A stretch of 64,000 nt of DNA. Origin: Pseudoduganella albidiflava (GTDB lineage Bacteria > Pseudomonadota > Gammaproteobacteria > Burkholderiales > Burkholderiaceae_D). This document shows positions 7,147 through 25,721 of this stretch, one piece after another; position 1 is the stretch's first letter; every line of letters starts with the position of its first letter. The notes under the pieces are model-generated. The model made no database searches. It was not told the DNA's origin and saw only the letters and a program-made list of their open reading frames with translations. The DNA lies in contig NZ_CP036401.1 of NCBI RefSeq assembly GCF_004322755.1, positions 3,596,001 to 3,660,000 on the forward strand, given 5' to 3'. The position numbers and the translations under genes are program-made.

Positions 7147-7185
7147 AGCGTACTGCCCGCCGGCGCCACCGCAAAATGGATTGTA
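7147..7185 (-). promoter_or_regulatory. Shared cluster promoter motif, copy 1
   Basis: Read on the reverse strand, ATACAATCCATTTTGCGG is followed exactly 18 nt after its TTTTGC by TACGCT, a -10-like hexamer about 38 nt before the cyclase ATG. The same block, with the same 18-nt spacing, precedes the DUF1302 gene, the alpha/beta hydrolase gene and the ABC binding-protein gene. It lies in the LysR/cyclase divergent gap, so a LysR site is plausible. Confidence 0.5.
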
Positions 7186-7289
7186 TCGATCACAGGTATC
7201 CACAAAACCGATGCCCGCGCCGCCTTGGCGGCTGGCGGGATGTGGCATCATCCTCCGCATAATTTTCAAGAAAAACCGAAGGAGACACC

Positions 7290-8243
7290 ATGCGTTTCAA
7301 CCGCCTCGACCTGAACCTGCTGGTCGCGCTCGACGCACTGCTGAGCGAAAAAAGCATCACCCGCGCGGCTGGCCGCCTGAACCTGAGCCAGTCGGCCACC
7401 AGCGGCGTGCTGGCCCGGCTGCGCGACTACTTCAAGGACGAACTGCTGGTCCCCGTCGGCCGCACGCTGATCCTCACGCCGCTGGCGTCCAGCCTGTGCG
7501 ACCCGGTGCGCAAGGTGCTGCTGCAGATCCAGGCGACCATCGACATCCGCCCCGAGTTCGATCCGCAGACGGCCAGCCGCGCCTTCCGCATTCTCGCCAG
7601 CGACTACATCTCGACGGTGCTGCTGGGCGACCTGGGCCAGCGCATCGCCAGCGCCGCGCCGAACATCACGCTCGACGTGCTGCCGACGACACCGAACCCG
7701 ATCGACCTGCTGGAACGCGCCGAGGTGGACCTGATCGTCCTGCCCCGCAAGTTCATCGCCGAAACGCATCCGGTGCACGTGCTGTTCGAGGAAACCTATA
7801 CCTGCATCGCCTGGACCGGCAACACGGCGGTCGGCGACACGCTGACGCTGGACCAGTACATGGGCCTGGGCCACGTGTCTTCCCGCTTCGGCAACGCGGT
7901 GACCAGTTTCGAGGAGTGGTTCCTGAAGGTGAGCGGCTACGACCGCCGCATCGAAGTGACGACGACCAACTTCACCAGCATTCCCCACTTCGTGATCGGC
8001 ACCAACCGCATCGCCACGATGCACACGCGCCTGGCCCGCACGCTGGCCCGCTATTACCCGATCCGCCTGCTGCCGCCGCCGCTGGAAATCCCCGCGCTGG
8101 AGATGTGCATGCAGTGGAACCACTTCCTGGACCGCGATCCTTCGCACATCTGGCTGCGTTCCGTGCTGGCCGATATCGCGCGGGCCGACCCGTTCGGCGA
8201 GGCACCTCGGGAGTACGCGGCACCCTTGGCCGCGTACTCCTGA
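7290..8243 (+). CDS. LysR-type transcriptional regulator (NodD/PcaQ-like)
   Basis: The 317-residue protein has an N-terminal winged helix-turn-helix (DLNLLVALDALLSEKSITRAAGRLNLSQS begins at residue 7) followed by the two-lobed effector-binding domain. The start has an excellent AAGGAGA seven bases upstream. LysR regulators usually control the divergent gene, here the cyclase at 6299-7108, and often further operons of the same pathway. The C-terminal half (LHxxW-like MQWNHFLDRDPSHIWLR) resembles the NodD-like subgroup that responds to phenolic compounds. Inducer and targets cannot be read from sequence, but the motif shared by four nearby promoters makes this protein or the LysR at 23461-24366 the prime candidate. 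Confidence 0.9.
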   Translation: MRFNRLDLNLLVALDALLSEKSITRAAGRLNLSQSATSGVLARLRDYFKDELLVPVGRTLILTPLASSLCDPVRKVLLQIQATIDIRPEFDPQTASRAFRILASDYISTVLLGDLGQRIASAAPNITLDVLPTTPNPIDLLERAEVDLIVLPRKFIAETHPVHVLFEETYTCIAWTGNTAVGDTLTLDQYMGLGHVSSRFGNAVTSFEEWFLKVSGYDRRIEVTTTNFTSIPHFVIGTNRIATMHTRLARTLARYYPIRLLPPPLEIPALEMCMQWNHFLDRDPSHIWLRSVLADIARADPFGEAPREYAAPLAAYS

Positions 8244-8256
8244 TCCACCTGGCCGG

Positions 8257-10710
8257 TCAGTCGGCCAGCGCCGCCTGCGCCGGCACGCCCGCAGGCGCGT
8301 CCTGCACCTGCCGCCGGGCCGACGGCATCACGAAACAGGCCAGCGCCGGCAGCAGAACCAGGGCCCCGACCATATTCCACAGGAACATGAATGCCAGCAG
8401 GATGCCCATATCGGCCTGGAACTTGATCGGCGACAGGGCCCAGGTGGCGACCGCGATCGCCAGCGTCACGCCGGTCAGCAGTACCACCTTGCCGGTGAAG
8501 CGCAGCGCATGGCTGTACGCTTCGCGCAGCGAGTCGCCGGCCTTCTGGCGCGCCAGCAGGATGCTCATCACATACAGCGCATAGTCGATGCCGATGCCGA
8601 CGCCCAGCGCGATCACCGGCAGCGTGGCCACCTTGATGCCGATGCCGAGCCATACCATCAGCGCCTCGCACAGCACGGACGTCAGCACCAGCGGGACCAC
8701 CGCGCACACCACGGCGCGCCAGGAGCGGAACGTAACGAGGCACAGCACGATCACCGCCGCGTACACCCAGTACAGCATGGCCCGGCTGGCATCGTGGACG
8801 ACGATGTTGGTGGCCGCCTCGATGCCCGCGTTGCCGGCCGCCAGCAGGAACTTCACGTCGCGCGTGTCGTTCTCGCGGGCGAAGTCCTCCACCACCTTCA
8901 CCACGCCGGCCAGCGTGTCGGCCTTGTGGTCGGTCAGGTAGGCGTACAGCGTGAGCAGGTTGCAGGTGTCGTTGTACAGGCCGCGCGGCGCGCCGGCCGT
9001 GACCATGTTCAGCGCACCCTGGTTCTGCACCAGCTCATACCATTTCAGGCTGCCCTCGTTCATGCCGGTCAGCACGCGGCGGTTCAGCAGCGCCAGCGAA
9101 TTGGTCGTCTCGACCGCGGGCAGCTGCGACAGCCGGTATTCCAGCGCATCCACGCGCATCAGCGTGTCGTAGCTGGCGCAGGCATTGTCCAGCGTCTTCA
9201 CCATCACGGCGAACACGTCGCTGCTGGCCGCGTAGTGGCTCACCACATAGGCGTTGTCGCGGTTGTAGCGCGAATCCGGCCGCAATTCGGGTGCGCCCGG
9301 ATCGAGGTCGCCGATCTTCACGTGCAGGCTGGCGTAGTAGCCGCCCGCTCCCAGCAGCGCCGCTACCGCGATGGTTGCCGCCGCGGTGCGCCGTTCGGTG
9401 AACCGTTCCAGCACGGACCAGCTGCCACTGCCACCGGCCTTGCCGCCGCTGCTTCCATTGCCATTACCTTCGGCCGCCTCGGCGCGCAGGCTGCGCTGCG
9501 CCGCGCCGGCATCCACGCCCAGCCAGGACAGCAGGATCGGCAGCAGGATCAGGTTCGTCAGGATCAGCGCGGCGACGCCGATGCTGGCCACCGCCGCGAG
9601 ATCCTTGATCACCTTGATGTCGATGATCGCCAGCACGGCGAAACCGACCGCGTCGCACAGCAGCGCCGCCAGGCCGGCCAGGAACAGCCGGCGGAACGTA
9701 TAGCGTGCCGCCACCAGCTTGTGCGTGCCGCGGCCGATATCCTGCATGATGCCGTTCATCTTCTGCGCGCCGTGGCTCATGCCGATGGCGAACACCAGGA
9801 ACGGCACCAGCATCGAGTACGGATCGAGCCCGTAGCCCAGCAGCGGCAGCAGGCCCAGTTGCCACACCACGGCCACCAGCGAACAGGCCACCACCAGCAG
9901 CGTGCTGCGCGCGCAGCGGGTGTACCAGTACAGCATCGCCGCCGCGATCAGCGTGGAGGCGGCAAAGAACAGCAGCACCTGCTTCAGCCCCTCGATCAGG
10001 TCGCCCGCCACTTTCGCGAACCCCACGATGTGCAGGTCCACCTGCCCGCCGGCGTACTTCGCGCGCAGCTGCTCCAGGCGTTCACCCAGCGCCGCGTAGT
10101 CCAGCGGCTGGCCATCCGCGCCGCGTTCCAGCAGCGGCACGTACAGGATGCTGGAACGGCCATCGACCGCGACCAGCTGGCCGATCTCCCCGGAACGGGC
10201 CACGTTCTCGCGCACCTGGGCCACGCTGCGCGGCGAGCCGTCGTAGTCGTTGGGGATCACCGGCCCGCCTTCCATGCCCTCTTCCGTCACGCCGACCCAG
10301 CGCGTGGACGGCGTCCACAGCGACTTCATGTAGGTGCGGTCGACGCCGGGAATCAGGAACAGCTCATCGCTGATCTTCTGCAGCGTGGCGAGGTACTGCG
10401 CGTCGTACACCGTGCCGCCCTTGGCCGCGACGGCGATGCGCACCGCGTTGCCGAGTCCGCTCAACTGGTCGCGGTGCTCCAGGTAATTGGCGATGTACGG
10501 ATGGCTGGCCGGGATCATGTCCTCGAAGCTGGCGTTGAGCTTCAGGCGCGTGGCCTGCCAGCCCAGCACCAGCGTGGCCAGCAGGCACGCCAGCGCCACC
10601 AGCAGCCGGTGGTTGAACAGCAGCCGTTCCAGCGCGCTGCCGGAGCGGGTATCGAAGTGGGACAGGTCGCGGATCACCGCCTGTTCGCCCGCGGAGCCGC
10701 CGAAACTCAT
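8257..10710 (-). CDS. RND superfamily (MMPL/HAE3-like) transporter
   Basis: This 817-residue inner-membrane protein has the two-fold RND layout. A first transmembrane helix lies at about residues 27-47 and is followed by a large periplasmic loop; then come a helix bundle with GMSHGAQKMNG and DAVGFAVL segments, a second loop, and a C-terminal bundle containing GVGIGIDYALYVMS. This single-subunit HAE3/MMPL class moves hydrophobic compounds such as lipids, hopanoids and sterol-like molecules. The start at 10710 is preceded by AAGGAGGT and overlaps the previous gene's stop as ATGA; a longer frame upstream is only a shadow of that gene. It is the last gene of the DUF1302-DUF1329-YCF48-RND cassette, a combination met in clusters for degradation of hydrophobic ring compounds. 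Export or import direction is not known. Confidence 0.9.
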   Translation of the reverse strand: MSFGGSAGEQAVIRDLSHFDTRSGSALERLLFNHRLLVALACLLATLVLGWQATRLKLNASFEDMIPASHPYIANYLEHRDQLSGLGNAVRIAVAAKGGTVYDAQYLATLQKISDELFLIPGVDRTYMKSLWTPSTRWVGVTEEGMEGGPVIPNDYDGSPRSVAQVRENVARSGEIGQLVAVDGRSSILYVPLLERGADGQPLDYAALGERLEQLRAKYAGGQVDLHIVGFAKVAGDLIEGLKQVLLFFAASTLIAAAMLYWYTRCARSTLLVVACSLVAVVWQLGLLPLLGYGLDPYSMLVPFLVFAIGMSHGAQKMNGIMQDIGRGTHKLVAARYTFRRLFLAGLAALLCDAVGFAVLAIIDIKVIKDLAAVASIGVAALILTNLILLPILLSWLGVDAGAAQRSLRAEAAEGNGNGSSGGKAGGSGSWSVLERFTERRTAAATIAVAALLGAGGYYASLHVKIGDLDPGAPELRPDSRYNRDNAYVVSHYAASSDVFAVMVKTLDNACASYDTLMRVDALEYRLSQLPAVETTNSLALLNRRVLTGMNEGSLKWYELVQNQGALNMVTAGAPRGLYNDTCNLLTLYAYLTDHKADTLAGVVKVVEDFARENDTRDVKFLLAAGNAGIEAATNIVVHDASRAMLYWVYAAVIVLCLVTFRSWRAVVCAVVPLVLTSVLCEALMVWLGIGIKVATLPVIALGVGIGIDYALYVMSILLARQKAGDSLREAYSHALRFTGKVVLLTGVTLAIAVATWALSPIKFQADMGILLAFMFLWNMVGALVLLPALACFVMPSARRQVQDAPAGVPAQAALAD

Positions 10711-11801
10711 GGCGCACCTCCTTCCAGCATGGCCGCGTCGATGCGGGAGACACCCCGCACGCCAGCCACCAGCACATCGCCGCCGGCCGTCGTCGCCAGC
10801 GCCGCGATCGGCGCGGGCGGCGTGGCCAGCTTCACCATCCGGGCCGGCTGGCCGGCACTGCCGGCGCGGTACAGGTGGCCGGCCTGGTCGGCCAACAGCA
10901 CGCCGTCCTTCCCGGCCGCCGATGCGCTCAGCGACACCGGCGCGTAGCCGGCCAGTTGCTCGAAGCCCTGCCCGTTCCAGCGGAATGCATTGCCGCGCAG
11001 GCCGCCGAACAGCAAGCCGCCATCGGGCAATGCCCTGGCGGTGAACCACGTGCCCCGGTACGGCGCCTGCACGCGCGTGAAGCTGCGCCCGCCGTCGAGC
11101 GAGCGGGCCAGGTAGCCCTGCTCGCCGGCCAGCCAGGTTTCCTCGCCGCGCACGGCGATCGCGTAGACATGCAAGCCGTCCGGGTTGTCGATCGCGTCAT
11201 TCAGGACCGTCCACGTGGCGCCGCCGTCTTCCGTGCGCAGCGCCAGGCCGTAGGCACCGGCCACGATGCCGCGCCGCTCGTCGAAGAAATGCAGGTCGAG
11301 CAAGGGCTTGTCCGGACCGTCCGCGGCGAACTGGCGTGCCGTGGCGGCCAGCGCTTCGTTGCCGCGCGCCGCGGTGTCGAGCAGGCGGATGATGCCGCGC
11401 CCGTCCAGTTGCCGGCGCCAGGTGGCGCCGCCGTCCGCGCTGTGCAGCACCACGCCGCCGTGGCCGATCGCCCAGGCCAGCCGTGGGGTCACAAAGCGCA
11501 CCGCCGTCAGCGTGACACTGACCGGTACCTGTGCCTGCCGCCAAGCCTTGCCGCCATCGTCCGACAGCAGCACCAGGCCACGCTCGCCCACGGCAATCGC
11601 ACGTCCCTCCATCCGGTCGAGGCCCAGCATCACGCGGCGCGGGGCCTGGCGGTCGCTCGCCGCCGGCCGGTCCAGTACCGCATGGACGCCTTGCTGCATT
11701 CCCTGCTGCGCGCCCTGCGCCGGTACCGCAGCCGGTGCGGCAGCAGCAGCGGCGGCTGGCGCCAGGCAGGCGGCCAGCAGCGTATTGAACAGACGGCCCA
11801 T
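10707..11801 (-). CDS. YCF48/BNR-repeat beta-propeller protein, exported
   Basis: The 364-residue protein begins with a signal peptide (MGRLFNTLLAACLAPAAAAAA) and contains repeated sialidase/BNR-type Asp-box motifs such as SDDGGKAWRQAQ, SADGGATWRRQL, TEDGGATWTVLN and SLDGGRSFTRVQ. Together they indicate a YCF48/HCF136-like seven-bladed propeller in the periplasm. The start ATG shares its A with the TGA of the preceding DUF1329 gene (TGATG), and its own stop overlaps the RND start (ATGA), so the four proteins are translationally coupled. A scaffold or periplasmic bridge between the RND protein and outer-membrane components is inferred from this context; no enzymatic residues are evident. Confidence 0.82.
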   Translation of the reverse strand: MGRLFNTLLAACLAPAAAAAAAPAAVPAQGAQQGMQQGVHAVLDRPAASDRQAPRRVMLGLDRMEGRAIAVGERGLVLLSDDGGKAWRQAQVPVSVTLTAVRFVTPRLAWAIGHGGVVLHSADGGATWRRQLDGRGIIRLLDTAARGNEALAATARQFAADGPDKPLLDLHFFDERRGIVAGAYGLALRTEDGGATWTVLNDAIDNPDGLHVYAIAVRGEETWLAGEQGYLARSLDGGRSFTRVQAPYRGTWFTARALPDGGLLFGGLRGNAFRWNGQGFEQLAGYAPVSLSASAAGKDGVLLADQAGHLYRAGSAGQPARMVKLATPPAPIAALATTAGGDVLVAGVRGVSRIDAAMLEGGAP

Positions 11802-13144
11802 CAGCGCAACCCCGCGCCGGACAGGGCTTCCTGGCTCCACGTGGCTTCCGGCCAGCGCGGCACCTGCTTGTACTGCACGGCCTTTTCCGTCACCAGGTCG
11901 CTGACGAACCAGGTGCCGGACACCAGGTCGTAGAAGCCGAACGTGATGCTGGTGGTGGCCGGCAGGTCCGGCATCGTTACCGGCAGCGACCACAGCGTCT
12001 TCCACAGCTGGCCATTGGCATCCCAGCGGTCCGCCAGCGCGCCGGTCCACGAATCCTCGTCGATGTAGTACACGCTGCGCGGCGCCAGGTGGCGCTGGCC
12101 CGCCTTCAGCTTCGCCTCCACCACCCACACGCGGTGCAGCTCCCAGCGCACGCCGTCCGGATTCAGGTGGTTCGGCCCCAGCAGGTCGGCATCCTTGCCC
12201 TTCAGCGAGCGGTTGCTGTTATACGGGATGTACATTTCCTTCTTGCCCAGGATCTTCCAGTCGAAGCGGTCCAGGCGGCCGCCGAAGATATCCACCTCAT
12301 CGAAGCTCATCACGCCCGCGGTGGCTGGCGTCGGCGTATCGCAGCAGGCGTTCGGCAGCTTGCGTGTGCGGCGCTGGCCCGGCAGGTAGACATAGCTGGA
12401 ATCCTTCTCCGGATCGAGATTGAGCTTGCCGTTGATCGCTTCGCCGGCGCGGATCGGTGGGCCGGAGTTGACCAGCCGGATAGTCCAGTAAGTGCCGTTG
12501 AACTTGTCCGCGGCGTCTTTATAGTAGTACGGCATGCTGCCGTCGGCCGTACCGTCGACCGTCATCACCGGCTTGCCGGCCGCCGTCGTCAGGTAGGAGC
12601 GGAACGGCTTTTGCCAGTCGGTGCCGCGCCAGCGCAGCAGGTGGTTCCACATCACTTCTGCGCCGGTCTTCGGGATCGGGAATGGAATGCCGGCATAGGC
12701 GCCTTCCGGCACCAGCTTGTCGTTCAGTTTCGCGCGGGTGGCGTTCTTTGCCGTGTTCGCATACACCCAGTCCGGCGCAGCAGCCGTGCGGCGCGTCGGA
12801 TACACGTCGATGCGGTACGACGGGTATTTCTTCAGCATGGCCTTGCTGCCGTCGGACAGCTTGTCGGCATGCTGCTCCATGTTATTCGCGGTGATCGAGA
12901 CGACCGGCTTGTCGCCGGCGAACGGATCCTGGTCGCGTTTTGCGCCATTCGTGAAACCGGCGGCGGGCTTGGCCAGGCCGCCGTCCCAGGCCGGGATCGT
13001 GCCATCCTTGTTGCCGGCCTTCTCGGCGCCCAGCGGCGTCAGGCTCTTGCCCAGTTGCGCCGCCTCCTCGGCGGTGGCGGCGCAAACGCCGCCGGCGAAC
13101 AGGATGGCCGCCAGCGCGGCCGGCAGGTGCTTCATGCGTGTCAT
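11801..13144 (-). CDS. DUF1329 family outer-membrane-associated lipoprotein-like protein
   Basis: The 447-residue protein has a signal peptide (MTRMKHLPAALAAILFAGGVCA) and the family hallmarks EEAAQLGKSLTPLGAEKAGNKDG, KDGTIPAWDGG and RRVWVVEAKLKAGQRH. DUF1329 proteins are predicted LolB/LppX-like half-barrels that could carry hydrophobic ligands; they are nearly always paired with DUF1302. The start chosen at 13144 has GGAG with six bases of spacing. An upstream ATG at 13162 overlaps the DUF1302 stop (TGATG) and would add six residues (MTMETT); which is used cannot be decided by eye. Substrate is unknown, but its place in an aromatic-catabolism cluster suggests a hydrophobic aromatic or a derivative. 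Confidence 0.85.
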   Translation of the reverse strand: MTRMKHLPAALAAILFAGGVCAATAEEAAQLGKSLTPLGAEKAGNKDGTIPAWDGGLAKPAAGFTNGAKRDQDPFAGDKPVVSITANNMEQHADKLSDGSKAMLKKYPSYRIDVYPTRRTAAAPDWVYANTAKNATRAKLNDKLVPEGAYAGIPFPIPKTGAEVMWNHLLRWRGTDWQKPFRSYLTTAAGKPVMTVDGTADGSMPYYYKDAADKFNGTYWTIRLVNSGPPIRAGEAINGKLNLDPEKDSSYVYLPGQRRTRKLPNACCDTPTPATAGVMSFDEVDIFGGRLDRFDWKILGKKEMYIPYNSNRSLKGKDADLLGPNHLNPDGVRWELHRVWVVEAKLKAGQRHLAPRSVYYIDEDSWTGALADRWDANGQLWKTLWSLPVTMPDLPATTSITFGFYDLVSGTWFVSDLVTEKAVQYKQVPRWPEATWSQEALSGAGLR

Positions 13145-13161
13145 GGTTGTCTCCATTGTCA

Positions 13162-14835
13162 TCAGAATGTGCGGCGGATGGACAGCGACAGGAAATCGCG
13201 GTCCTTCATCGCCTGGCCGTAGGTGTAGGCCGATTGCGGCAGTGTTCGCGGGGCGTGCGTGACGACCGTCGGCGTATCCTCGCGGCCGAAGTAATGGGTG
13301 TAGTTGAGCGACACATACCAGGCGCTCTCGTAGACGGCGTTCAGGCCGGCGCTGATGTCGCCGCCGCGCTGCACGCCGAAGCTGTTGCCGAGGGCCAGCG
13401 AACGGCCGGCCGGCGCGTAGCCCAGCCCGATGGGTACCGACACATCGAGCCCGCCGGCCACCTGGCGGTAGCTCGGTTCATACAGCACCCGCACCGCCGT
13501 GCCTTCGCGCCGCGCGTTCGGGTCGATCATCGTGGCGTTTTTCGTGATGCTGGTCACCCGGTTCCAGGCGATCTCGCCCACCAGCGAAGCTTCGCGGGCG
13601 ATGAAGCTGGGGCCGAGCGATGCCAGCATCGACACGTTCACGTGGGCGGTACGGCCCACCGGATAGACCGGATTGCCACGGTTGTCCGAGGCGCTGGCCG
13701 GGCCGCCGAAGGCCGCCGGCACGAGGCCGAACAGGTCGGCCGTGCCCGCATGCGACAGCGGCGTGTTGTGGCGCACGGAAGCTTCGGCGGAAAAGTTGAA
13801 CTCGCCCAGCGTCGTGGTGGCACTGGTGCCATAGGTGCGGATGCCTTCGTGGTAGTACAGCGAATAGGTGTGCAGGCCCGGCGCCAGCACCACCTGTGGG
13901 GCCTTGTCGTGGTAGCGCGCGGCGTACAGGCCGAAGTCGATGCCGAGGCCTTCGGGGCTCCATTTCAGCTGCACACCGCCCTGCCCCGAATCCCTGGCCA
14001 GGCGGTCGTGCGCGCGTGCCAGCGCCACCGGCCGGCCGGTCGCATCCACGCCGGTGTAGAGCTGCTCGCCGCCGTCGTCCAGGAAGTCGACGGTGGAGAA
14101 ATAGCTGCCGGCGGCCGGCAGCCGGCTCTTCTCCCAGCGATACTGGTAATAGGCGCCCAGGCTGACATTGGCACCCGCCTGGAGCTGGCCGGACACCTGG
14201 CCCACGGGGCGCAGCAGTTCCTTGAACTGGGTGCCGGGCACCGACAGGCCTTTCACGACGTCGATCGGCTGCTGGGCGCCGGCGATGCCGTTCATGCCGA
14301 AGAACAGCGTTTCGCCATACACCAGCGCGTGGCGGCCGGCCCGCACGGTGAACGGCATCTCGCCCAACGTACCCTTGGCGAACACGAAGGCATCGAGCAG
14401 CTCGGCCTTCCTGCCGTGCAGCCTGCGGGTCGCGTCCGTAAATTCGGTGGGCGGTACCGAGGCCGCGTTCCAGGTCGGCCGGAACGCATTGTCGGTGGAA
14501 CGGTTGTAGGCACCGTCGTACCAGGCGGCCCCGCTGGCGCGCACGCCGAAGTTTCGATAGGAAACGTCCAGTTCCGACAGCAGGTCGGCGCGGTTCGACA
14601 CGAAGCCCTTGCCGAAATTGCGGTCGCCGTCATCCGTGTTGACCGTGTTTTCCCCCGGCGTGACCTGCACGGCCGAGGGCCGCTTGAGCCGGTACGCCGT
14701 ACTGTACTTGACCGTGTTGTCCCAGCGGACCGTCAGGTCGGGAATGGTCGTGGCGATCTCCGCCGCCTGGGCGCCGGCCATGGCGGCGATCGCCGCGGCC
14801 ACGGCTGCCGTCATGCCTGCTCTGGTGTGTTTCAT
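13162..14835 (-). CDS. DUF1302 family outer-membrane beta-barrel protein
   Basis: This 557-residue protein has a Sec signal (MKHTRAGMTAAVAAAIAAMAGAQA) and an alternating beta-strand pattern running to a C-terminal phenylalanine (LSLSIRRTF), as in outer-membrane barrels. The motifs IPDLTVRWDNTVKYS near the mature N-terminus and RAGRHALVYGETLFFG are typical of DUF1302. The start has AAGGAGA at a good distance. It is the first gene of the cassette; its stop overlaps or abuts DUF1329. The family probably forms a channel for hydrophobic compounds. Its promoter region (14975-15020) carries the motif shared with other units of the cluster. Confidence 0.85.
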   Translation of the reverse strand: MKHTRAGMTAAVAAAIAAMAGAQAAEIATTIPDLTVRWDNTVKYSTAYRLKRPSAVQVTPGENTVNTDDGDRNFGKGFVSNRADLLSELDVSYRNFGVRASGAAWYDGAYNRSTDNAFRPTWNAASVPPTEFTDATRRLHGRKAELLDAFVFAKGTLGEMPFTVRAGRHALVYGETLFFGMNGIAGAQQPIDVVKGLSVPGTQFKELLRPVGQVSGQLQAGANVSLGAYYQYRWEKSRLPAAGSYFSTVDFLDDGGEQLYTGVDATGRPVALARAHDRLARDSGQGGVQLKWSPEGLGIDFGLYAARYHDKAPQVVLAPGLHTYSLYYHEGIRTYGTSATTTLGEFNFSAEASVRHNTPLSHAGTADLFGLVPAAFGGPASASDNRGNPVYPVGRTAHVNVSMLASLGPSFIAREASLVGEIAWNRVTSITKNATMIDPNARREGTAVRVLYEPSYRQVAGGLDVSVPIGLGYAPAGRSLALGNSFGVQRGGDISAGLNAVYESAWYVSLNYTHYFGREDTPTVVTHAPRTLPQSAYTYGQAMKDRDFLSLSIRRTF

Positions 14836-14974
14836 GGTGTCTCCTTGGTTTTATGCGGGACGAACGGACCCGCCGCGCGTGTCGTGCGCGTTTTATTGTT
14901 GTGCTGCGAGTGAAGCGGTGCCTTGCATGCCTGCGACAGCGAGGCGGGAGGGGTCTCCGTTTTCTTGTTGGTCA

Positions 14975-15020
14975 AGAATACCGAGCCTGGGAGGTGCCGA
15001 AAAATGGTTTATCGCGATGC
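14975..15020 (-). promoter_or_regulatory. Shared cluster promoter motif, copy 2
   Basis: On the reverse strand GCGATAAACCATTTTTCGG is followed 18 nt after TTTTTC by TATTCT (plus-strand AGAATA at 14975-14980; GAAAAA at 14999-15004). The -10 hexamer lies about 140 nt before the DUF1302 ATG. The ten bases CGGCACC and flanks are nearly identical to the copy at 21.54 kb. Confidence 0.55.
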
Positions 15021-15040
15021 GACGTATCGGCAAATGCGAT

Positions 15041-15081
15041 GGCGCCGCAGGTGACGGGCGCCGCAGGTGACGGGCGCCGCC
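15041..15081. repeat. 16-bp tandem repeat, 2.5 copies
   Basis: The unit GGCGCCGCAGGTGACG occurs at 15041-15056 and 15057-15072 and is followed by a partial copy. It lies just past the stop of the epimerase gene, between that operon and the DUF1302 promoter. No function is evident. Confidence 0.8.
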
Positions 15082-15091
15082 GCGATGCACG

Positions 15092-16030: not shown

Positions 16031-16040
16031 GGCGCGGCCC

Positions 16041-17030
16041 TCAATCCGGCGCCGGGGCTCGCACCACCTGCTGGTCGATGGTGCCGAACGGCGCATCGCC
16101 GTGCGCATCGCGCGCGGTCATCGACACCCGGTCGCCGAAGCGCATGAACTCCGTGCGCGGCTCGCCATGGTCGATGATCTCGATCACGCGGCGCTCGGCG
16201 ATGCAGGCCGAACCGGCGGCGCGGTTCTCGTTCGACACGGTGCCGGAACCGATCACGGTGCCGGCCGACAGCCGCCGCGTGCGCGCCGCATGGGCGATCA
16301 GCTGGCCGAAGCTGTAGTTCATCTCGCCGCCGTTCGGATTGCCGAACCACGCGCCATTCCACTGCACGTGCAGGTCCAGCTTCACGCGGCCGTCATGCCA
16401 CGCCTCGCCCAACTCGTCCGGCGTGATGGTGACCGGCGCGAAGCTGGTCGACGGCTTGCACTGGAAGAAGCCAAAGCCCGTCTTCATCTCGCGCGGTCCC
16501 AGCTTGCGCAGGCTCCAGTCGTTGACCTGCACCAGCAGCCGCACCCGTTCCTGGGCCGCGGCAGCGGTCGCGCCCATCGGCACGGTGCCCGTGATGACGC
16601 CGAATTCGCCTTCGAAATCGATGCCCAGGCTTTCGTCGGGCAACGGCACATCGTCGCGTGGGCCGAGGAAATCGTCGGAAGCGCCCTGGTACATCACCGG
16701 GATCGTCTCGAAATCGGGAATGGGCTCCGTGTTGAAGGCCCGTTCCATCAGCCGGCCATGGTTCAGGAACGCCGAGGCGTCTGCCCACTGCCAGGTACGC
16801 GGCAGCGGCGCCGCGCAGGCCGCCGGATCGAAAGCGAAACTGTTCTCTGCCGCGCCGGCATTCAGGCCGTCGTAGAGTGCAAGCAGGCCAGCCTGTACGT
16901 CATCCCAGCGCTCGACCGCGTCGAGCAGTGTTGCGGCAAGGTGGCCGGCATCCACGGCGCGCGACAGGTCGCGCGAGACCACCACCAGGCGGCCATCCGG
17001 CCGGTCCGATTTCAACGTTGCGAATTTCAT
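16041..17030 (-). CDS. Fumarylacetoacetate hydrolase (FAH) family protein
   Basis: The 329-residue protein contains the FAH metal site IDFEGEFGVITG (Glu140, Glu142) and QVNDWS (Asp171), plus the GSGTVSNEN active-site strand. FAH enzymes hydrolyse the C-C bond of acyl-pyruvates or decarboxylate/hydrate meta-cleavage products. The length matches beta-proteobacterial fumarylacetoacetate/fumarylpyruvate hydrolases. The start at 17030 has AAGGAGA, and its ATGA overlaps the stop of the cupin gene. As a member of the dioxygenase operon it is the likely last hydrolytic step giving pyruvate, or fumarate or acetoacetate equivalents. Confidence 0.88.
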   Translation of the reverse strand: MKFATLKSDRPDGRLVVVSRDLSRAVDAGHLAATLLDAVERWDDVQAGLLALYDGLNAGAAENSFAFDPAACAAPLPRTWQWADASAFLNHGRLMERAFNTEPIPDFETIPVMYQGASDDFLGPRDDVPLPDESLGIDFEGEFGVITGTVPMGATAAAAQERVRLLVQVNDWSLRKLGPREMKTGFGFFQCKPSTSFAPVTITPDELGEAWHDGRVKLDLHVQWNGAWFGNPNGGEMNYSFGQLIAHAARTRRLSAGTVIGSGTVSNENRAAGSACIAERRVIEIIDHGEPRTEFMRFGDRVSMTARDAHGDAPFGTIDQQVVRAPAPD

Positions 17031-17620
17031 GCATTCTCCTTGCGGTTGGCCAGCGCGGTACGCAGGCCGGGTTCGTATTCGCCGTCGAGCAGCACGAACA
17101 GCATCCGGCACATGGCGCCCGAGCGGTTGGCCCAGGCGTGGTTGGTGCCGCGCTGGATGACGATGTCGCCTCGCGCGAGCGGCACTTCGCTGTCGTCCAG
17201 CACGAGCGTCATCGCGCCCTCGAGCACGATGCCGTAGTCGACCGACTCGGTGCGGTGCATCAGCGGGTGCGGCGATTCCGCCCTGACCGTCGAGGCGGCG
17301 GCATCGCCGATCTGGGTGAACGCAGCCTTCATCCGGGCCGCGCCCTGCGTTAGAAACTCGTCGGTATCGGGCGGAATGTCGACGATGCGGATGCGCGAGC
17401 CGTGGCGCGGCGGCGGCAAAACGAGCGGGCCGAGGGTCGGATCGGCGCCGTTCCCGACCGGGGCCGGCGTGGCGGCCGTGGACCAGATTTCATGGAACAC
17501 GGTGCCCGGGATCTTCTCGATCGGCACCACGGTCGGCAGCGGTCCGGCCTCGGCCACGATGGCCTTGCCGGCGGCGTCGTGGCCGGTGACGATGCGGCGA
17601 ACGGGTTTCAGGGTTTCCAT
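17027..17620 (-). CDS. Cupin domain protein
   Basis: This 197-residue protein has a C-terminal cupin: HRTESVDYGIVLEG corresponds to motif 1 with a degenerate HxxxE pattern, and RGDIVIQRGTNHAW to motif 2. The N-terminal part (VPIEKIPGTVFHEIWST) is usual in cupins found beside aromatic monooxygenases and FAH-family hydrolases. The start at 17620 has AGAGGG upstream; the stop overlaps the next gene (ATGA). The single well-formed cupin is too short for a bicupin gentisate dioxygenase, so it may be an isomerase, a decarboxylase-like helper or a sensor. Function is uncertain. Confidence 0.75.
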   Translation of the reverse strand: METLKPVRRIVTGHDAAGKAIVAEAGPLPTVVPIEKIPGTVFHEIWSTAATPAPVGNGADPTLGPLVLPPPRHGSRIRIVDIPPDTDEFLTQGAARMKAAFTQIGDAAASTVRAESPHPLMHRTESVDYGIVLEGAMTLVLDDSEVPLARGDIVIQRGTNHAWANRSGAMCRMLFVLLDGEYEPGLRTALANRKENA

Positions 17621-17628
17621 GCGCCCTC

Positions 17629-18759
17629 TCAGATCGCCTGGGCCAGCGCGACCAGCGTCTCGCGCATGATGCGGCCGTGTTCGGCCTTGTCGCCGCCGGT
17701 GATCTCGATCTCGCCGAGCCGCCCGGAATTCTCGACCACCATGCGGCAGCGTTCCCAGCGCCGTTCCTCGAAGGCACCCAGCGCCGTATCGATGTCGGCG
17801 TGGCGTTCCAGTTCCTCGGCCAGCACGATCGCATCCTCGATGCCGATGCAGGCGCCGGATGCCATGTGCGGCGTGGTGGCGTGCACCGTATCGCCGATCA
17901 GGACGACGCGGCCGCGGTGCCATGGGCGCGGCAGCAGCAGGCCTTCCAGCGGCCGGTAGATCACCTGCGAATCCTCGGCCAGGCGGGCGCGGATGGCCTG
18001 CAGCGCCGGCACGTCGAACGGCGCCAGCAGGTCGCGCAGCAGCGGCAGGAACTGCGCCGGATCGACATAGGTGCGCTCGGCGCGGTCTTCCGTCACGTAC
18101 AGGTACATCTCCGTGTCGGATACGGGCGCGACGCCGGCCTTGATCTTCGGGCCCAGCCACATCATCGCGTGGTCGATGTACGCCGGCCGCGGCAGCACCG
18201 CGCGCCAGACGCCCTGCCCGGTGTACTTCGGGCCGGCGGCGCCGGGGAACAGCGCGTCGCGCATCGCCGAATACAGCCCGTCCGCGCCGATCACCAGGTC
18301 GTACCGGCCGGAGGCCCCATCGGTGAAGGTCACGTCGACGCCGCCGGCATCCTGCGTGAATGACGCGAACGTGCAGCCGAGACGTACGTTGGTGCCGGAT
18401 GCGCGGGTGGCCTCGGCCAGGATTTCCGCCAGCACGGGGCGCATGATGGCGCCGCCGCCCGGTACGTCCGGCCCGGCCAGCCGGGGCGTGGGCAGCGTGG
18501 CGATGTGGTGGCCGCCGGAGGTGTGCAGGTCGACGTTGTCGTGCGCGGAACCGCGGCGCACGAATTCGTCCAGTACGCCCAGCGTGCGGAATGCGCGCAG
18601 CGTGGCGCCGCCCAGGCTGATGCCGGCGCCGTACGAGCGCCAGCCGGCATCGATCTCGACCAGGTCGACGGCGATGCCGCGCTTTCTCAGTTCGATGGCG
18701 GCGGACATGCCGGAAAAGCCGCCGCCGACGATCAGCACGCGTTGGACAGGGTGCGTCAT
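17629..18759 (-). CDS. FAD-dependent aromatic-ring monooxygenase (class A flavoprotein)
   Basis: The 376-residue flavoprotein has the dinucleotide-binding GGGFSG at residues 12-17, the EID strand end of the fold, and the GD motif IGDTVHATTPHMASGA that contacts the FAD ribose and pyrophosphate. This is the 4-hydroxybenzoate/3-hydroxybenzoate/salicylate hydroxylase superfamily, which inserts one oxygen into a phenolic ring using NAD(P)H. The ATG overlaps the Rieske ferredoxin stop by four bases (ATGA) and has GGAGA upstream. In the operon it probably makes the ortho- or para-diol for the extradiol-type dioxygenase two genes upstream. The exact substrate is unknown. Confidence 0.88.
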   Translation of the reverse strand: MTHPVQRVLIVGGGFSGMSAAIELRKRGIAVDLVEIDAGWRSYGAGISLGGATLRAFRTLGVLDEFVRRGSAHDNVDLHTSGGHHIATLPTPRLAGPDVPGGGAIMRPVLAEILAEATRASGTNVRLGCTFASFTQDAGGVDVTFTDGASGRYDLVIGADGLYSAMRDALFPGAAGPKYTGQGVWRAVLPRPAYIDHAMMWLGPKIKAGVAPVSDTEMYLYVTEDRAERTYVDPAQFLPLLRDLLAPFDVPALQAIRARLAEDSQVIYRPLEGLLLPRPWHRGRVVLIGDTVHATTPHMASGACIGIEDAIVLAEELERHADIDTALGAFEERRWERCRMVVENSGRLGEIEITGGDKAEHGRIMRETLVALAQAI

Positions 18760-19127
18760 ATTGGTCTCCTTCCGCCCTGCGGCGGTATGTAAATATTGTT
18801 ATCGGGCGCCAGTTCGACTTCGACGCGCTGCAGGCCCTGCCCCAGGCAGGGTCCCAGCGTGCAGATGCCGGTGGCGATGTCGAACCGGGCGCCATGCGCG
18901 GCGCAGACGATGCTGGAGCGGTCGGCATCCAGGTAGGCATCCTTGCGCCAGGCCAGCGGGACTTCGCGATCCCGGGTTCCGTAGTGCGGGCAGGCGTTGC
19001 GCCAGGCGTGGAGCACGGCGCCCTGCCGCACCACGAAGACCGTGTCGCGCCCCTCGCGCCACGGATCGAAACCGCGCGACGTGCCGTCCGGGATGTCGTC
19101 CAGGCGGCACAGGTACACGCTGTCCAT
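18756..19127 (-). CDS. Rieske-type [2Fe-2S] ferredoxin
   Basis: This 123-residue protein is essentially one Rieske domain: Cys46-x-His48 (CPHYGTR) and Cys75-xx-His78 (CAAHGARFD), followed by GICTLGPCLGQ. It has no oxygenase catalytic domain, so it is an electron carrier. The start at 19127 shares its A with the TGA of the dioxygenase gene (TGATG), and the stop overlaps the monooxygenase start. Being locked between an extradiol-type dioxygenase and a flavin monooxygenase, neither of which normally needs a Rieske partner, is unusual. It may reactivate the dioxygenase iron or serve the VanAB-like system nearby. Confidence 0.85.
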   Translation of the reverse strand: MDSVYLCRLDDIPDGTSRGFDPWREGRDTVFVVRQGAVLHAWRNACPHYGTRDREVPLAWRKDAYLDADRSSIVCAAHGARFDIATGICTLGPCLGQGLQRVEVELAPDNNIYIPPQGGRRPI

Positions 19128-20074
19128 CAGTGCCGTTCCGCGGCCCCCGCCGCGCCAGGCGGCGGACCGCCCGGTGCCCAGTTGTCGCGCTTCTCGAACA
19201 GGAACAGCTGCGATGCGTCGGCACCGGCCGGTGCTTCGCGCGCGGTCCACTGTTCATCGTGGAGGTCCATGTCGGCGTCGTACTCGACATGGCAGCCCAG
19301 CGGGGAATTGAAGTACCAGAACCAGTTCGAGCCCATCTTGTGGCGGCCCGGGCCCCAGAATGACTGGTATCCCTTGTTGACGAAGCGCGATCCGGCCTGC
19401 ATCACTTCGGTGGGGCCGCCCATGTGGAAGGTGAAGTGCTCGATGCCCTTCATGAACGGCGGCGTCTGGATCAGGAACAGCGTGTGGTGGTCGAGCGTGC
19501 CGGCCGGGCGCAGGAACGGCCCGGCGCCCACCAGGCGGTCGGTACATGCGAAGCCGAGCCGCTCGACATAGAATTTTTCCGCGCGCGGCACGTCCGGCAC
19601 GAAATACACCACGTGCGACAGCGTGCGCGGCAGCGCCGGCGCGTTCTCATCGACGGCGACGACGTTCGGCTTGCGCTGCGGCGCCGCGCCGGGCGCGTTG
19701 ATGGTTTCGGCCGGCATGTCCAGCGCGCGGCGCACGGTCACCTGGAAGCCGAGCACGAAGCCCATGTCGTCCAGCGCCTCGATGCTGCCGTCGGGCAGGC
19801 GCTTCACTTCGCGGTCGCGGCCCAGTTCCTCGGCGATGGCGCCCAGCGCCGCCTGGTCGGCCACGCCGTAGATGGTCTTGCGCAGCATGCTGGCCGTGCC
19901 CATCGGCGCCGGCAGGCCGGCGTCGTCCTTGTGCGCCAGCACGATGGCGGTGCCGTCGAGCGCCTCGAAGCGGCCGTTGCCAGCCGGGGCCAGGCCGTAG
20001 TCGGTCAGGTATTGCGCGCAGGCGGCGAGGTCGTCCACGCCGAAGACCAGCGCGTCGGGTCCGATGATGTTCAT
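19127..20074 (-). CDS. VOC-family extradiol-type ring-cleavage dioxygenase
   Basis: The 315-residue protein has two vicinal-oxygen-chelate halves. The C-terminal half carries a complete 2-His-1-Glu site: His154 (SHVVYFV), His213 (IEHFTFH) and Glu264 (CHVEYDAD), with spacing close to that of 2,3-dihydroxybiphenyl dioxygenases. It should cleave a catecholic ring next to the diol with Fe(II) or Mn(II) and O2. The start MNIIGPDALVFG at 20074 has GGAGA upstream; a much longer upstream frame runs through palindromic repeats and is not coding. It is followed immediately, by overlap, by the Rieske ferredoxin gene. The ring substrate cannot be named. Confidence 0.85.
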   Translation of the reverse strand: MNIIGPDALVFGVDDLAACAQYLTDYGLAPAGNGRFEALDGTAIVLAHKDDAGLPAPMGTASMLRKTIYGVADQAALGAIAEELGRDREVKRLPDGSIEALDDMGFVLGFQVTVRRALDMPAETINAPGAAPQRKPNVVAVDENAPALPRTLSHVVYFVPDVPRAEKFYVERLGFACTDRLVGAGPFLRPAGTLDHHTLFLIQTPPFMKGIEHFTFHMGGPTEVMQAGSRFVNKGYQSFWGPGRHKMGSNWFWYFNSPLGCHVEYDADMDLHDEQWTAREAPAGADASQLFLFEKRDNWAPGGPPPGAAGAAERH

Positions 20075-20123
20075 GATGTCTCCTGGAGAGTCTGGTGTGT
20101 GATGTCTGGTAATGCTGGTGCCT

Positions 20124-20251
20124 GGTGTCGGACACCTGTGGCGCAAACGCCGGCGTTGCCTGGTGTCGGACACCGGTTTTTCCGTCTGGTGTCGGACACC
20201 GGTTGCTGGCTCGGCGAAAACCGGTGTCCGACACCTGCGGTGTCCGACACC
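20124..20251. repeat. Cluster of five GGTGTC-n-GACACC palindromes (REP/BIME-like)
   Basis: A 13-bp palindrome (6-bp arms, 1-bp centre) occurs at 20124-20136, 20162-20174, 20188-20200, 20223-20235 and 20239-20251. The first three have G at the centre and the last two C, so they are in opposite orientation. GCGCAAAC/GACGCAAAC blocks flank both ends. The cluster fills the 202-bp gap between the alpha/beta hydrolase stop and the dioxygenase start, inside one operon, so it may form mRNA hairpins. Confidence 0.85.
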
Positions 20252-20276
20252 AGTGACGCAAACTGCCGTGGTTCGC

Positions 20277-21437
20277 TTAAACGGTGGTCCGCCCGCCCAG
20301 CGTCTCGGCCACCCAGTCCGCGATGTACGCGCCGGCATTGGCGGAGTTGTCGAAGCTGGAGTGCTGCACGCCGCCTTCGCGGTCCGTGAAGATCTTCAGT
20401 TCGCGCCCCGGGCTGTTGATCAGCTGGTCGTAAGTACGCTGGGCCCAGTGCAGCGGGATCTGCGAATCCTTTTCGCCATGCGTGACGAGGAAGGGCACGG
20501 TGATCCGGTCCAGCACGCCGTCGAGGTGCACGTTTTCGGCGATGCGCATGAAGTCGTCCATGTCCCTGGCGCCCCATACCCAGCGCACGTGTTCCCAGTA
20601 GTGCGGCACCGGGAAGCTGCCCTCTTTCGCCAGGCGGCGCTTCTGCACGTCGCGCCAGTCGTGGTTGGCGCCCCACACCACGCCGCAGGCGAAGCGCGGC
20701 TCGAAGGCTACCGCGCGCGGACAGTAGTAGCCGCCCAGCGAGACGCCTTCCAGGCCGATGCGCTTCGGATCGACGTCGTCGCGTGTCTCCAGCCAGTCGA
20801 CCACTTTCGAGGCCCAGCGTTCGCTGTCGAAGACCGCCGTCATGCCGTGCAGCCGCAGCGCTTCGCCGGTGCCCGGCTGGTCGATCACCAGCGACGACAC
20901 GCCGCGCTGCGCCAGCCAGCGCGGCAGGCCGACGCGGTACTTCATCTCCTTGGTGGAATCGAGGCCGTTGACCTGCACCAGGATCGGCGCGGGCCCTTGC
21001 GTGTTTTCGGCGCGCACGTACAAGCCGGCGATGTGGCCGTCGCCGTAGGGGATTTCCACCCGCTCGCAGTTCTCGCCGGCCAGGCGGATGCCGCGGGCGA
21101 ACACGTCGAGGAAGCGGCCGTACAACTCGGCGCGGCCCGGCGCACCGTGCGCCTGCAGGCGTTCCGCCGTCAGGTAGTAGGTGGCGGCGCGGCCGTATTT
21201 GTCGCCGGCCGAGATCAGGCGGCCGCGCCGCTCGTCTTCCTCGGCCAGGCCGCACAGCTTGTCGGCCATGGTCGACCAGGTGGCGCGGAAGGCGCGCGTG
21301 CCGTCGGCATCGGGCTGGCGCGCCGCTTCCTGAAGCGGTGCGCACATTTCCTCGATCTCGCCGATCCTGGCGCCCATTTCGATGGCCAGGTCGACCGACA
21401 GGTTCCACACATAGTTGGTCGGGAAGTACTTGAACAT
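20277..21437 (-). CDS. Alpha/beta hydrolase (FrsA/DUF1100-type, C-C hydrolase-like)
   Basis: The 386-residue protein has a helical N-terminal cap (about residues 1-120) and an alpha/beta hydrolase core with the nucleophile elbow GVSLGG (Ser233), an acid in THGEKDSQIP and His in GGVQHSSFD. The cap-plus-core layout is that of 2,6-dihydroxypseudooxynicotine hydrolase, which breaks a C-C bond next to a ketone. AAGGAA precedes the ATG. It is probably the first gene of the operon running down to 15092, with the REP-like cluster between it and the dioxygenase. A role in hydrolysing the ring-cleavage product fits; ester hydrolysis is the alternative. Confidence 0.83.
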   Translation of the reverse strand: MFKYFPTNYVWNLSVDLAIEMGARIGEIEEMCAPLQEAARQPDADGTRAFRATWSTMADKLCGLAEEDERRGRLISAGDKYGRAATYYLTAERLQAHGAPGRAELYGRFLDVFARGIRLAGENCERVEIPYGDGHIAGLYVRAENTQGPAPILVQVNGLDSTKEMKYRVGLPRWLAQRGVSSLVIDQPGTGEALRLHGMTAVFDSERWASKVVDWLETRDDVDPKRIGLEGVSLGGYYCPRAVAFEPRFACGVVWGANHDWRDVQKRRLAKEGSFPVPHYWEHVRWVWGARDMDDFMRIAENVHLDGVLDRITVPFLVTHGEKDSQIPLHWAQRTYDQLINSPGRELKIFTDREGGVQHSSFDNSANAGAYIADWVAETLGGRTTV

Positions 21438-21518
21438 GCTGATTCCTTGTATTGATGATGGTGGCGGCGCGCCCTCGTCGGCGCGGCCGGTGGCGGCGCG
21501 GACAGGACGGCTGTCAGC

Positions 21519-21565
21519 AATATAAGGAAACGGCGCGGTGCCGAAAAATGGATTATTTCCATGCC
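21519..21565 (-). promoter_or_regulatory. Shared cluster promoter motif, copy 3
   Basis: On the reverse strand GAAATAATCCATTTTTCGG is followed 18 nt after TTTTTC by TATATT (plus-strand AATATA at 21519-21524; GAAAAA at 21543-21548), about 80 nt before the hydrolase ATG. It matches the copy before DUF1302 over CCATTTTTCGGCACC. Confidence 0.58.
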
Positions 21566-21775
21566 AGCCATCCGCCGGATCGATACCTGGATCGATCCCT
21601 GGCGCGATCCAGACCTGAAGCGAGCCCTGCTGTGCGAAAAAGGCGACAGTAACTTGTTAAATGGCTACCCGATCGCGAAAACAATTTGATGCCACACGGC
21701 AATTCCACTATTGTTCCATCCGACACGGCCGCCGCCACCGACTTCGCGGCAAGACGAACAACACTGGATCAACGA

Positions 21776-22978: not shown

Positions 22979-22984
22979 GGAACC

Positions 22985-23398: not shown

Positions 23399-23441
23399 GC
23401 GTCACCCTGCAGTAAGCGTCACCCTGCAGCAAGCGTCACCC
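23384..23441. repeat. 17-bp tandem repeat over a stop codon
   Basis: The unit GTCACCCTGCAGTAAGC is present at 23401-23417 and 23418-23434 (one C/T change). It is preceded by a near copy at 23384-23400 and followed by a partial copy. The first copy encodes the last residues (LTLQ) and stop of the PBP-like gene, so each repeat carries another in-phase-looking end. Confidence 0.85.
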
Positions 23442-23460
23442 ATTGCGCGGCTGGCACGCC

Positions 23461-24366
23461 TCAGGCGCCGAACAGCTCGGCCAGCAGCGCGCGCAGCCAC
23501 ATGCTGGCACCGTCCTTGTGGTATTTGCGGTGCCAGTGCTGCTTCAGGTCGAATGGCGGTATCTCCAGCGGCGGCTCCAGCAGCCGGATGTCCGCCAGCT
23601 TCGCGAACGACTCGCCTACCGCGCGCGGCACCGTCACCACCAGGTCGCTCGACGCGATCAGGAACGGGATCGACATGAAGTGCGGCGTCGACAGCACCAC
23701 CCTCCTCTCGATCTTTTGCCGCGCCAGGAATTGTTCGAACACTTCCTGGCTGCGCCCTTCCGCCTTGATCACGGCATGCCCCATTCCTAGAAACGCATCG
23801 AGCGTGAGCTGGCGCGCGCGGTAGGGGTGGCCCTGCCGCAGCAGGCAGATGAAGTCGTGCGAGAACAGCCGCTGCTGGAACAGGTTGCGCTGGTGCAGGT
23901 CGGGGAAGTAGCCGACCGCCAGGTCCACGTCGCCGCTCTCGAGCGCACGCGCCAGGTCTTCGGGCGGCATGCTGACGGAACTGATGGTGGCATCCGGCGC
24001 CTCGCGCTGCAGGCGGTCCAGCAGCTTGGGCAGGAAGGTCATTTCGCCGATGTCCGACAGCGCCAGCGTGAAGCGCTTGCGCGTGGTGGCGGGCTGGAAA
24101 TCGCGGCGCGCCAGCACGTCCGTTTCCAGGCGCTGCAGGATGTCGCGGGTGGGCGCGATCAGGTCCAGCGCGCGCGGCGTCGCCTGCATGCCCTGCGTGG
24201 CGCGCACGAACAGCGGGTCGCCCAGCGCCGTGCGCAGCTTGTTCAGCGCCACGCTGACCGCCGGCTGGCTCATGCCCAGGCGCCGCGCCGCGCCGCTCAC
24301 GCTCTTTTCCTCGAATATCGCCAGCGCGATCGGCAGCAGGTTCATGTCGAACGGTTTCACGGCCAT
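23461..24366 (-). CDS. LysR-type transcriptional regulator
   Basis: The 301-residue protein has the N-terminal LysR helix-turn-helix (DMNLLPIALAIFEEKSVSGAARRLGMSQPAVS) and the effector domain with FTLALSDIGEMTFLPKL and DLVVTVPRAVGES. It is divergent from the ABC binding-protein/VanA/VanB unit, 165 bp apart, and convergent with the porin unit. The start has AGGTGGAGA upstream. It is the natural candidate regulator for the VanAB-like operon, whose promoter holds the motif also seen before three other units; whether this protein or the LysR at 7290 binds it is open. Confidence 0.9.
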   Translation of the reverse strand: MAVKPFDMNLLPIALAIFEEKSVSGAARRLGMSQPAVSVALNKLRTALGDPLFVRATQGMQATPRALDLIAPTRDILQRLETDVLARRDFQPATTRKRFTLALSDIGEMTFLPKLLDRLQREAPDATISSVSMPPEDLARALESGDVDLAVGYFPDLHQRNLFQQRLFSHDFICLLRQGHPYRARQLTLDAFLGMGHAVIKAEGRSQEVFEQFLARQKIERRVVLSTPHFMSIPFLIASSDLVVTVPRAVGESFAKLADIRLLEPPLEIPPFDLKQHWHRKYHKDGASMWLRALLAELFGA

Positions 24367-24439
24367 CTCTCCACCTCGGTTACATCCCTCTGTTACGCGC
24401 CTCTATTCAGGCCTCTATTACTTTTTCGAATTCAGATTA

Positions 24440-24482
24440 TGCAATAAATTCCATTTTCAGATAGTCCAAATTGCGTGATGAT
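24440..24482 (+). promoter_or_regulatory. Shared cluster promoter motif, copy 4 (variant)
   Basis: GCAATAAATTCCATTTTCAG (24441-24460) is followed 18 nt after ATTTTC by GATGAT (24477-24482). It has one T fewer than the other three copies, but the ATAAA/CCATTTT core and the spacing are kept. It is 50 nt before the TTG start of the binding-protein gene and in the LysR intergenic gap. Confidence 0.42.
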
Positions 24483-25710: not shown

Positions 25711-25721
25711 AGGAGACCACC

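Follow-up and report, generated by a model that had tools for sequence, protein, structure and literature searches.

A nod-box-like operator at three promoters of a putative flavonoid-degradation cluster in Pseudoduganella albidiflava

Introduction

Four transcription units in Pseudoduganella albidiflava raise the question of whether one regulator controls uptake, export-like and catabolic functions together, and through which DNA element it would do so. The stretch of DNA that was analysed (64 000 nucleotides; the window) carries a cyclase gene (PF04199; 6299–7108, minus strand), an export-like unit (8257–14835, minus strand), a catabolic unit (15092–21437, minus strand) and a unit encoding an ABC periplasmic binding protein, a VanA-type Rieske oxygenase and its reductase (24532–27694, plus strand). 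A sequence-only reading of the window had proposed that one activator serves all four through a new operator, of which four copies (copy 4 being that of the ABC/Rieske unit) stand 18 nt before TACGCT, TATTCT, TATATT or GATGAT. The regulators named as candidates were two LysR proteins, encoded by lysR1 and lysR2, and the AraC at 28533; the AraC-like identity of the latter was confirmed.

The nod box is the DNA switch by which nitrogen-fixing rhizobia sense flavonoids. The results given below replace 'one activator, four units' by a single regulator for three of the units and, probably, another for the fourth. We consider it probable that LysR1 activates three units in an inducer-dependent manner through nod-box-like operators, with the ABC/Rieske unit controlled separately by LysR2.

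Operator sequence and specificity

The block ATAAnCCATTTTTCGG was found on the minus strand at window positions 7169–7184, 14997–15012 and 21541–21556, where it faces the cyclase, DUF1302 and alpha/beta hydrolase genes, respectively, each copy being oriented toward its own gene as had been proposed. With up to three mismatches allowed, this 16-mer has four matches in the window against 0.32 expected (at least four in 0 of 100 shuffles); one of the four (47498–47513) lies at none of the proposed promoters, and the search did not recover copy 4. Genome-wide, the same search gave 82 places (two exact) against 36 for a reversed-pattern control. The 16-mer alone is weakly specific, and as a self-standing motif it was rejected as too frequent once relaxed.

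The 16-mer makes up no more than the downstream portion of an operator of 40 bp, ATC-N9-GAT-N7-AT(C/G)-N9-CAT-TTT, which is common to the three promoters; a search of the window for this spaced pattern gave three matches. Operator 1 (7173–7212, minus strand) precedes the cyclase gene and sits in the intergenic region between this gene and lysR1; operator 2 (15001–15040, minus strand) lies before the DUF1302 gene and operator 3 (21545–21584, minus strand) before the alpha/beta hydrolase gene. Each is an exact copy of the 40-mer, which without mismatch has three matches in the 7.44-Mb genome, every one at these promoters. One mismatch admitted three further places outside these promoters (control, 0), of which that at 2621694 adjoins a LysR gene at 33% identity and scores 11/13 (see below). 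The concern that the motif might be common throughout the genome holds for the 16-mer and not for the entire operator.

Sites were also scored at 13 core positions, a score that permits GAT as well at the operator end; operators 1–3 reach 13/13 each. At least one additional 13/13 site is present in the genome (3206594, before a PhoX-like gene), with E 0.25 under an operator model built from 20 training sites, three of them from the window. This site (G000:C1:3206594–3206633; locus L163) has a −10-like hexamer at offset 61, and the 15 kb analysed at this locus contains no relative of LysR1 or LysR2. The match at 47498–47513 (GTACCCCATTTTTCGG) looks like part of a different recurrent block. This block, GTACCCCATTTT(T/C)CGG or similar, recurs at several genomic positions, with two copies facing each other 26 bases apart (2105881 and 2105907), and has no relation to the operator.

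Phase of the −10 boxes

The predicted −10 boxes are TACGCT for operator 1 (7147–7152, minus strand; 16 nt past GCGG), TATTCT for operator 2 (14975–14980, minus strand) and TATATT for operator 3 (21519–21524, minus strand), and they are identical in three, three and five aligned genomes, respectively. The distance from CGG to the box is 16 nt in all three copies. The spacer is thus constant, as had been claimed, but the value of 18 nt was rejected.

The phase was assessed on 32 non-redundant operators from outside the Pseudomonas-type loci. The mean number of matches to TATAAT at offset 60 was 3.19, compared with 1.28 at random offsets, and 0 of 20,000 draws were as high; with the close relative L031 removed the peak at offset 60 was 3.10. 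Pseudomonas-type operators (n = 64) gave a weaker signal (1.92 at offset 60), with TAnnnT present in 12 at offset 60 and in 15 at offset 61. The operator of the same-family locus L210, described below, shows no clear −10 phase, its best match falling at offset 58.

Conservation in related loci

A scan with the hydrolase yielded 357 relatives, and the best 80 loci were retained. In these best 80 of 357 loci, 344 sites scored at least 12/13 with both strands counted, against six in one Markov-generated set. As the operator is nearly symmetrical, many sites can be read on both strands; when the weaker-strand readings were dropped and four plasmid loci were added to the best 80, 216 of 356 sites remained. 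At least one site of 12/13 was found in 63 of the best 80 of 357 loci, and the remaining 17 reach 10 or 11.

For counts gene by gene in the best 80 of 357 loci, the best score within 50–330 nt before the gene start was taken. Scores of at least 12 were recorded before the hydrolase (51/80), VOC (42/76), FAD monooxygenase (40/72), DUF1302 (12/60), cyclase (8/30) and VanA (2/18) genes, and before lysR1 (41/75), there mainly as shared divergent sites. None was recorded in this interval before the DUF1329 (0/61), MMPL (0/53), ferredoxin (0/73), FAA hydrolase (0/29), epimerase (0/22), cupin (0/17), reductase (0/18) or SBP (0/4) genes. Random windows in the same best 80 of 357 loci reached 12 in 55 of 1600 cases.

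Promoter alignments of closely related genomes also set off the operator and the −10 box. The hydrolase promoter was aligned from five genomes (a sixth, L173, which has no pattern match, was left out), and the operator columns were 75% identical and the −10 columns 100% identical, compared with 8% upstream. The corresponding values for operator and upstream columns were 82 and 20% at the DUF1302 promoter (three genomes) and 98 and 66% at the cyclase promoter (three genomes). Plasmid locus L121 (Burkholderia anthina plasmid NZ_CP126319.1) has a 12/13 operator ahead of its catabolic unit. Plasmid locus L119 (Massilia putida), which carries a LysR1-type gene (49%) and the DUF1302, DUF1329 and MMPL genes, has no site of 11/13 or higher.

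Copy 4 and the ABC/Rieske unit

Copy 4 (24417–24459, plus strand) had been read as the same motif. Its second half is one base longer, CGG is missing and GATGAT makes a poor −10 box, which is only partly conserved among relatives. It is a different LysR-type element with a conserved core, TTATGCAATAAATTCCATTTTCA, at 24437–24459. L031, L193 and L194 (SBP) and L033 (VanA) have cores like TTATGCAATAAATTCCATTTTCA in the interval that separates lysR2 from the divergently oriented gene next to it, and no such core was found in L051. Within the genome the core has one exact match and one match with three mismatches. Copy 4 was rejected as a fourth member of the operator set on account of the extra base and of the core conserved beside lysR2.

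It is unlikely, though not negligibly so, that a single regulator acts at all four promoters, with copy 4 as a degenerate version of the operator present at the other three. Copy 4 does contain CCATTTT and a similar AT-N10-AT/N7/ATG layout, and LysR1 and LysR2 fall within one broad LysR group. However, the additional base in the second half, and a core of its own that is always found beside lysR2 in four other loci, set it apart; the neighbour on the other side varies (SBP or VanA) while lysR2 is constant, and LysR1 and LysR2 have only 25 of 65 N-terminal residues in common. We therefore retain the reading with two regulators, in which copy 4 is probably the predicted operator of LysR2, and the ABC/Rieske unit is most likely under separate control by LysR2 through it. 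Of the proposed single-activator regulon, the export-like and catabolic units, with three promoters in all, are kept, and the promoter of the ABC binding-protein gene, with its different conserved element beside lysR2, is not. In L193 (G020; 1932–3123) the ABC binding-protein gene was matched in three pieces, perhaps owing to a frameshift.

A second locus with a LysR1 paralog

When the genome was searched with the operator model, the three window sites ranked first and the fourth match had an E of 1.9e-4. This match and two weak partial ones (E 0.77 and 1.78) all lie within 14 kb of a gene for a LysR1 paralog (78%; G000:C1:2477986–2478900), so that its neighbourhood holds three of the seven non-training matches (p about 2e-6, with the 14-kb limit chosen after the matches had been seen). 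The second locus (G000:C1:2477694–2493424; loci L160, L161 and L195) contains four site readings with −10-like hexamers at offset 60 or 61. Sites are located ahead of an MFS gene, in the interval separating the genes for a TonB receptor and a glycoside hydrolase 2, and about 290 nt upstream of the paralog gene; a glycoside hydrolase 1 gene and another TonB receptor gene are close by. The locus could serve flavonoid glycosides.

LysR1 and the paralog agree at 57 of 65 N-terminal residues, the paralog has nod-box-like sites of its own nearby, and operators 1–3 might accordingly be read mainly by the paralog, or by both proteins, which would wire the regulon in trans to two inducers. We regard this as quite unlikely, in that LysR1 adjoins operator 1 and most other loci carry a LysR1-type gene of their own.

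Identity of the regulator

LysR1 (7290–8243, plus strand) is a NodD-like LysR protein with the Pfam domains HTH_1 (PF00126) and LysR_substrate (PF03466). It is 41% identical to an annotated NodD2, and its closest plasmid relative, ahead of NodD, is a Massilia LysR (49%). LysR2 (23461–24366, minus strand) was likewise assigned to the LysR regulators by Pfam, and its best solved relative is 1uth (E 1.5e-61). A 45-row tree was divided 33/12 with support 100/100, with LysR1 and four NodD rows on one side and LysR2 on the other; the NodD side also holds other cluster regulators, and the tree supports the split alone, not the order inside it.

Among the 63 operator-bearing loci (of the best 80 of 357), 60 have a LysR1-type gene; one of the three others, L031, has a 95% LysR1 on the same contig beyond the analysed stretch. 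Of the 17 loci without a 12/13 site in the same best 80 of 357, 14 still carry a LysR1-type gene. The location of lysR2, between operator 3 and the ABC unit and near the catabolic genes, could suggest that LysR2 rather than LysR1 reads operators 1–3. This is very unlikely: LysR2 orthologs (at least 55%) occur in just three of the 63 operator loci (best 80 of 357), and over the N-terminal 65 residues, which comprise the DNA-binding domain, LysR2 matches the pSymA NodD at 27 positions and LysR1 at 41.

Co-occurrence was also examined in two samples that have genomes in common. In 60 genomes of the genus, with cut-offs of 1e-80 for the LysR1-type protein and 1e-3 for the operator match, 16 had the protein, 18 the operator, 14 both and 40 neither (p 1.8e-8). 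In the four genomes with the operator only, a LysR1-type gene at 41–42% adjoins the operator; the two that have just the regulator are G052 and G056, the latter 60% complete. The family sample comprised 195 genomes, of which seven had the operator, 17 the regulator and six both (p 1.2e-6), and 11 of the 17 regulator-bearing genomes had no model match at E 1e-3 with 30 candidates scored per genome. Part of this co-occurrence is linkage in one cluster. LysR1 is likely to be the reader of operators 1–3, and of the candidates that had been named, the LysR at 7290 fits best as regulator of the three promoters; control of three of the four promoters, and with them of the export-like and catabolic units, by one regulator is well supported. 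The notion that the repeats are chance matches between AT-rich promoters with no common regulator, for which only the frequency of the relaxed 16-mer speaks (82 against 36), is extremely improbable and is already contradicted by the specificity and conservation of the entire operator with its phased −10 box.

From these features we infer LysR1 binding, its oligomeric state, activation and the inducer as follows. The shared motif would be the −35-proximal part of the nod-box-like operator. LysR1 would bind two AT-N10-(G/C)AT half-sites whose starts are 22 bp apart (about two helical turns), and the downstream half-site would stand in for a −35 element. In response to an aromatic inducer, which is probably a flavonoid or arises from flavonoid breakdown, LysR1 would activate transcription from the −10 box starting 23 nt past the last CAT. 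The cyclase gene, the export-like unit with its DUF1302, DUF1329 and MMPL genes, and the catabolic unit would then be switched on together, and the ABC/Rieske unit would be controlled apart from them, most likely by LysR2 via copy 4.

Comparison with the rhizobial nod box

According to one published account, the nod box spans 47 bp and contains palindromic ATC-N9-GAT motifs (PMC5596368); the half-site spacing of about 22 bp used for it here was measured on the rhizobial sites scored in this work. All three window operators have the nod-box layout and a first half of ATC-N9-GAT. The second half does not read ATC-N9-GAT in the window; it is AT(C/G)-N9-CAT in all three, and GAT in the second half was found in Pseudomonas-type loci. 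Because the second half ends in CAT and not GAT, the window elements are termed nod-box-like. The layout being that of the nod box, the operator is not wholly new, contrary to what the sequence-only reading had offered.

The likeness to the nod box and NodD consists of two AT-N10-(G/C)AT half-sites separated by N7, with the same 13 core positions at nod genes, nodA among them. On an annotated S. mexicanum plasmid, nodA and an acyl carrier protein gene are each preceded by a 13/13 site. In S. meliloti pSymA, an unannotated stretch has three 13/13 sites and one of 12/13 directly before a NodD-like gene, and several of the pSymA sites end in ACAATCGATTTTACC or nearly so. The window differs in what lies downstream: the genes there encode the cyclase, DUF1302 and catabolic proteins, and nod genes were not seen beside them. 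In the part of the BysR paper cited here, ATC-N9-GAT is merely quoted as a Rhizobium motif (PMC10100970). Among the titles and abstract openings listed in a literature search, none ties nod-box-type operators to catabolic clusters; the search did not cover the key FdeR paper (Wassem 2017) or Goethals 1992, and priority is therefore not claimed.

Gene content and comparison with the fde and ifc clusters

The export-like unit contains the DUF1302 gene (13162–14835), the DUF1329 gene (11801–13162), a further gene (about 10707–11800) and an MMPL transporter gene (in 8257–11049), all on the minus strand, and the same gene order is present in the annotated Massilia putida plasmid L119. The catabolic unit encodes an alpha/beta hydrolase, a VOC dioxygenase, a ferredoxin-like protein, an FAD monooxygenase, a cupin-like protein, an FAA hydrolase and an epimerase-like protein. 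With the cyclase, the window has the fde-type set (hydrolase, VOC, ferredoxin, FAD monooxygenase, cyclase, cupin, FAA hydrolase and epimerase).

The catabolic unit is matched gene by gene in L210, at 82% for the hydrolase, 75% for VOC, 47% for the ferredoxin, 66% for the FAD monooxygenase, 63% for the cupin, 63% for the FAA hydrolase and 47% for the epimerase; the cyclase is matched at 86%. The eight window products follow the L210 order, except that the cyclase gene is set apart in the window. In L210 a LysR gene (45%) is divergent from the operon, with a 12/13 operator between it and the first gene. The letters of the naringenin pathway assign fdeC to the VOC dioxygenase, D to the ferredoxin and fdeE to the FAD monooxygenase (PMC11303751, PMC11069340, as far as cited here). 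In the L210 operon the genes for VOC and the FAD monooxygenase take third and fifth place, in keeping with the names fdeC and fdeE, and we infer that the L210 cluster is an fde operon. L210 has a second nod-box-like site (13/13, minus strand; 2057–2093, G085:C1:912057–912093) about 3 kb from the fde-like operator.

The fde operon is that of naringenin degradation in Herbaspirillum seropedicae. FdeR is described as a LysR activator, called NodD-like, that is divergent from an operon for flavonoid A-ring cleavage, with a reported protected stretch of 60 bp that overlaps the −35 region (PMC10799723); the L210 operator lies in the corresponding place. In the passages cited, the FdeR sites are described as T-N11-A boxes and not as a nod box (PMC10799723). 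Unlike fde, the window has the operator at three separate promoters, includes the DUF1302/DUF1329/MMPL export-like unit and has a second LysR protein proposed to act on the ABC/Rieske unit. Regulation of the NodD/FdeR type is of a known kind and is here spread over three promoters. By description, the cluster also resembles the ifc isoflavone cluster of Variovorax, which has an FAD monooxygenase, a glyoxalase-type dioxygenase, an alpha/beta hydrolase and a cupin (PMC11069340). The term 'lysr' does not appear in the main text of the ifc paper (PMC11069340), and the main text of the H. seropedicae RNA-seq paper mentions neither fde nor LysR.

Judged by its genes, the cluster looks built for plant flavonoid degradation. 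L121, on a Burkholderia anthina plasmid from sorghum rhizosphere that was typed as conjugative, carries the same genes (cyclase 84%, hydrolase 78%, VOC 76% and monooxygenase 66%), and this sorghum plasmid suggested sorgoleone as a possible substrate of the cluster.

For a plant-aromatic catabolic cluster that is widespread, the analysis thus supplies an operator in concrete form together with a candidate regulator and a set of targets, and it predicts how the cluster is regulated in many bacteria from soil and plants, Pseudomonas among them. We put forward tentatively, as an idea somewhat short of even chances, that the nod box and NodD are a branch of an older and wider flavonoid-sensing catabolic system that rhizobia later recruited for nodulation. 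Control of plant-aromatic degradation by nod-box-like operators and NodD-like LysR proteins would then be a feature of Beta- and Gammaproteobacteria, perhaps also of Alphaproteobacteria, and in this genome the system would include the second locus as well, which could free and take up flavonoid glycosides. As flavonoid degraders and flavonoid-sensing symbionts have the operator layout in common, the origin of the rhizobial nod box becomes testable.

Elsewhere in the window (about 3100–5450), near-identical repeats of about 800 bases were noted by eye, apparently inside a repetitive gene of the calcium-binding type.
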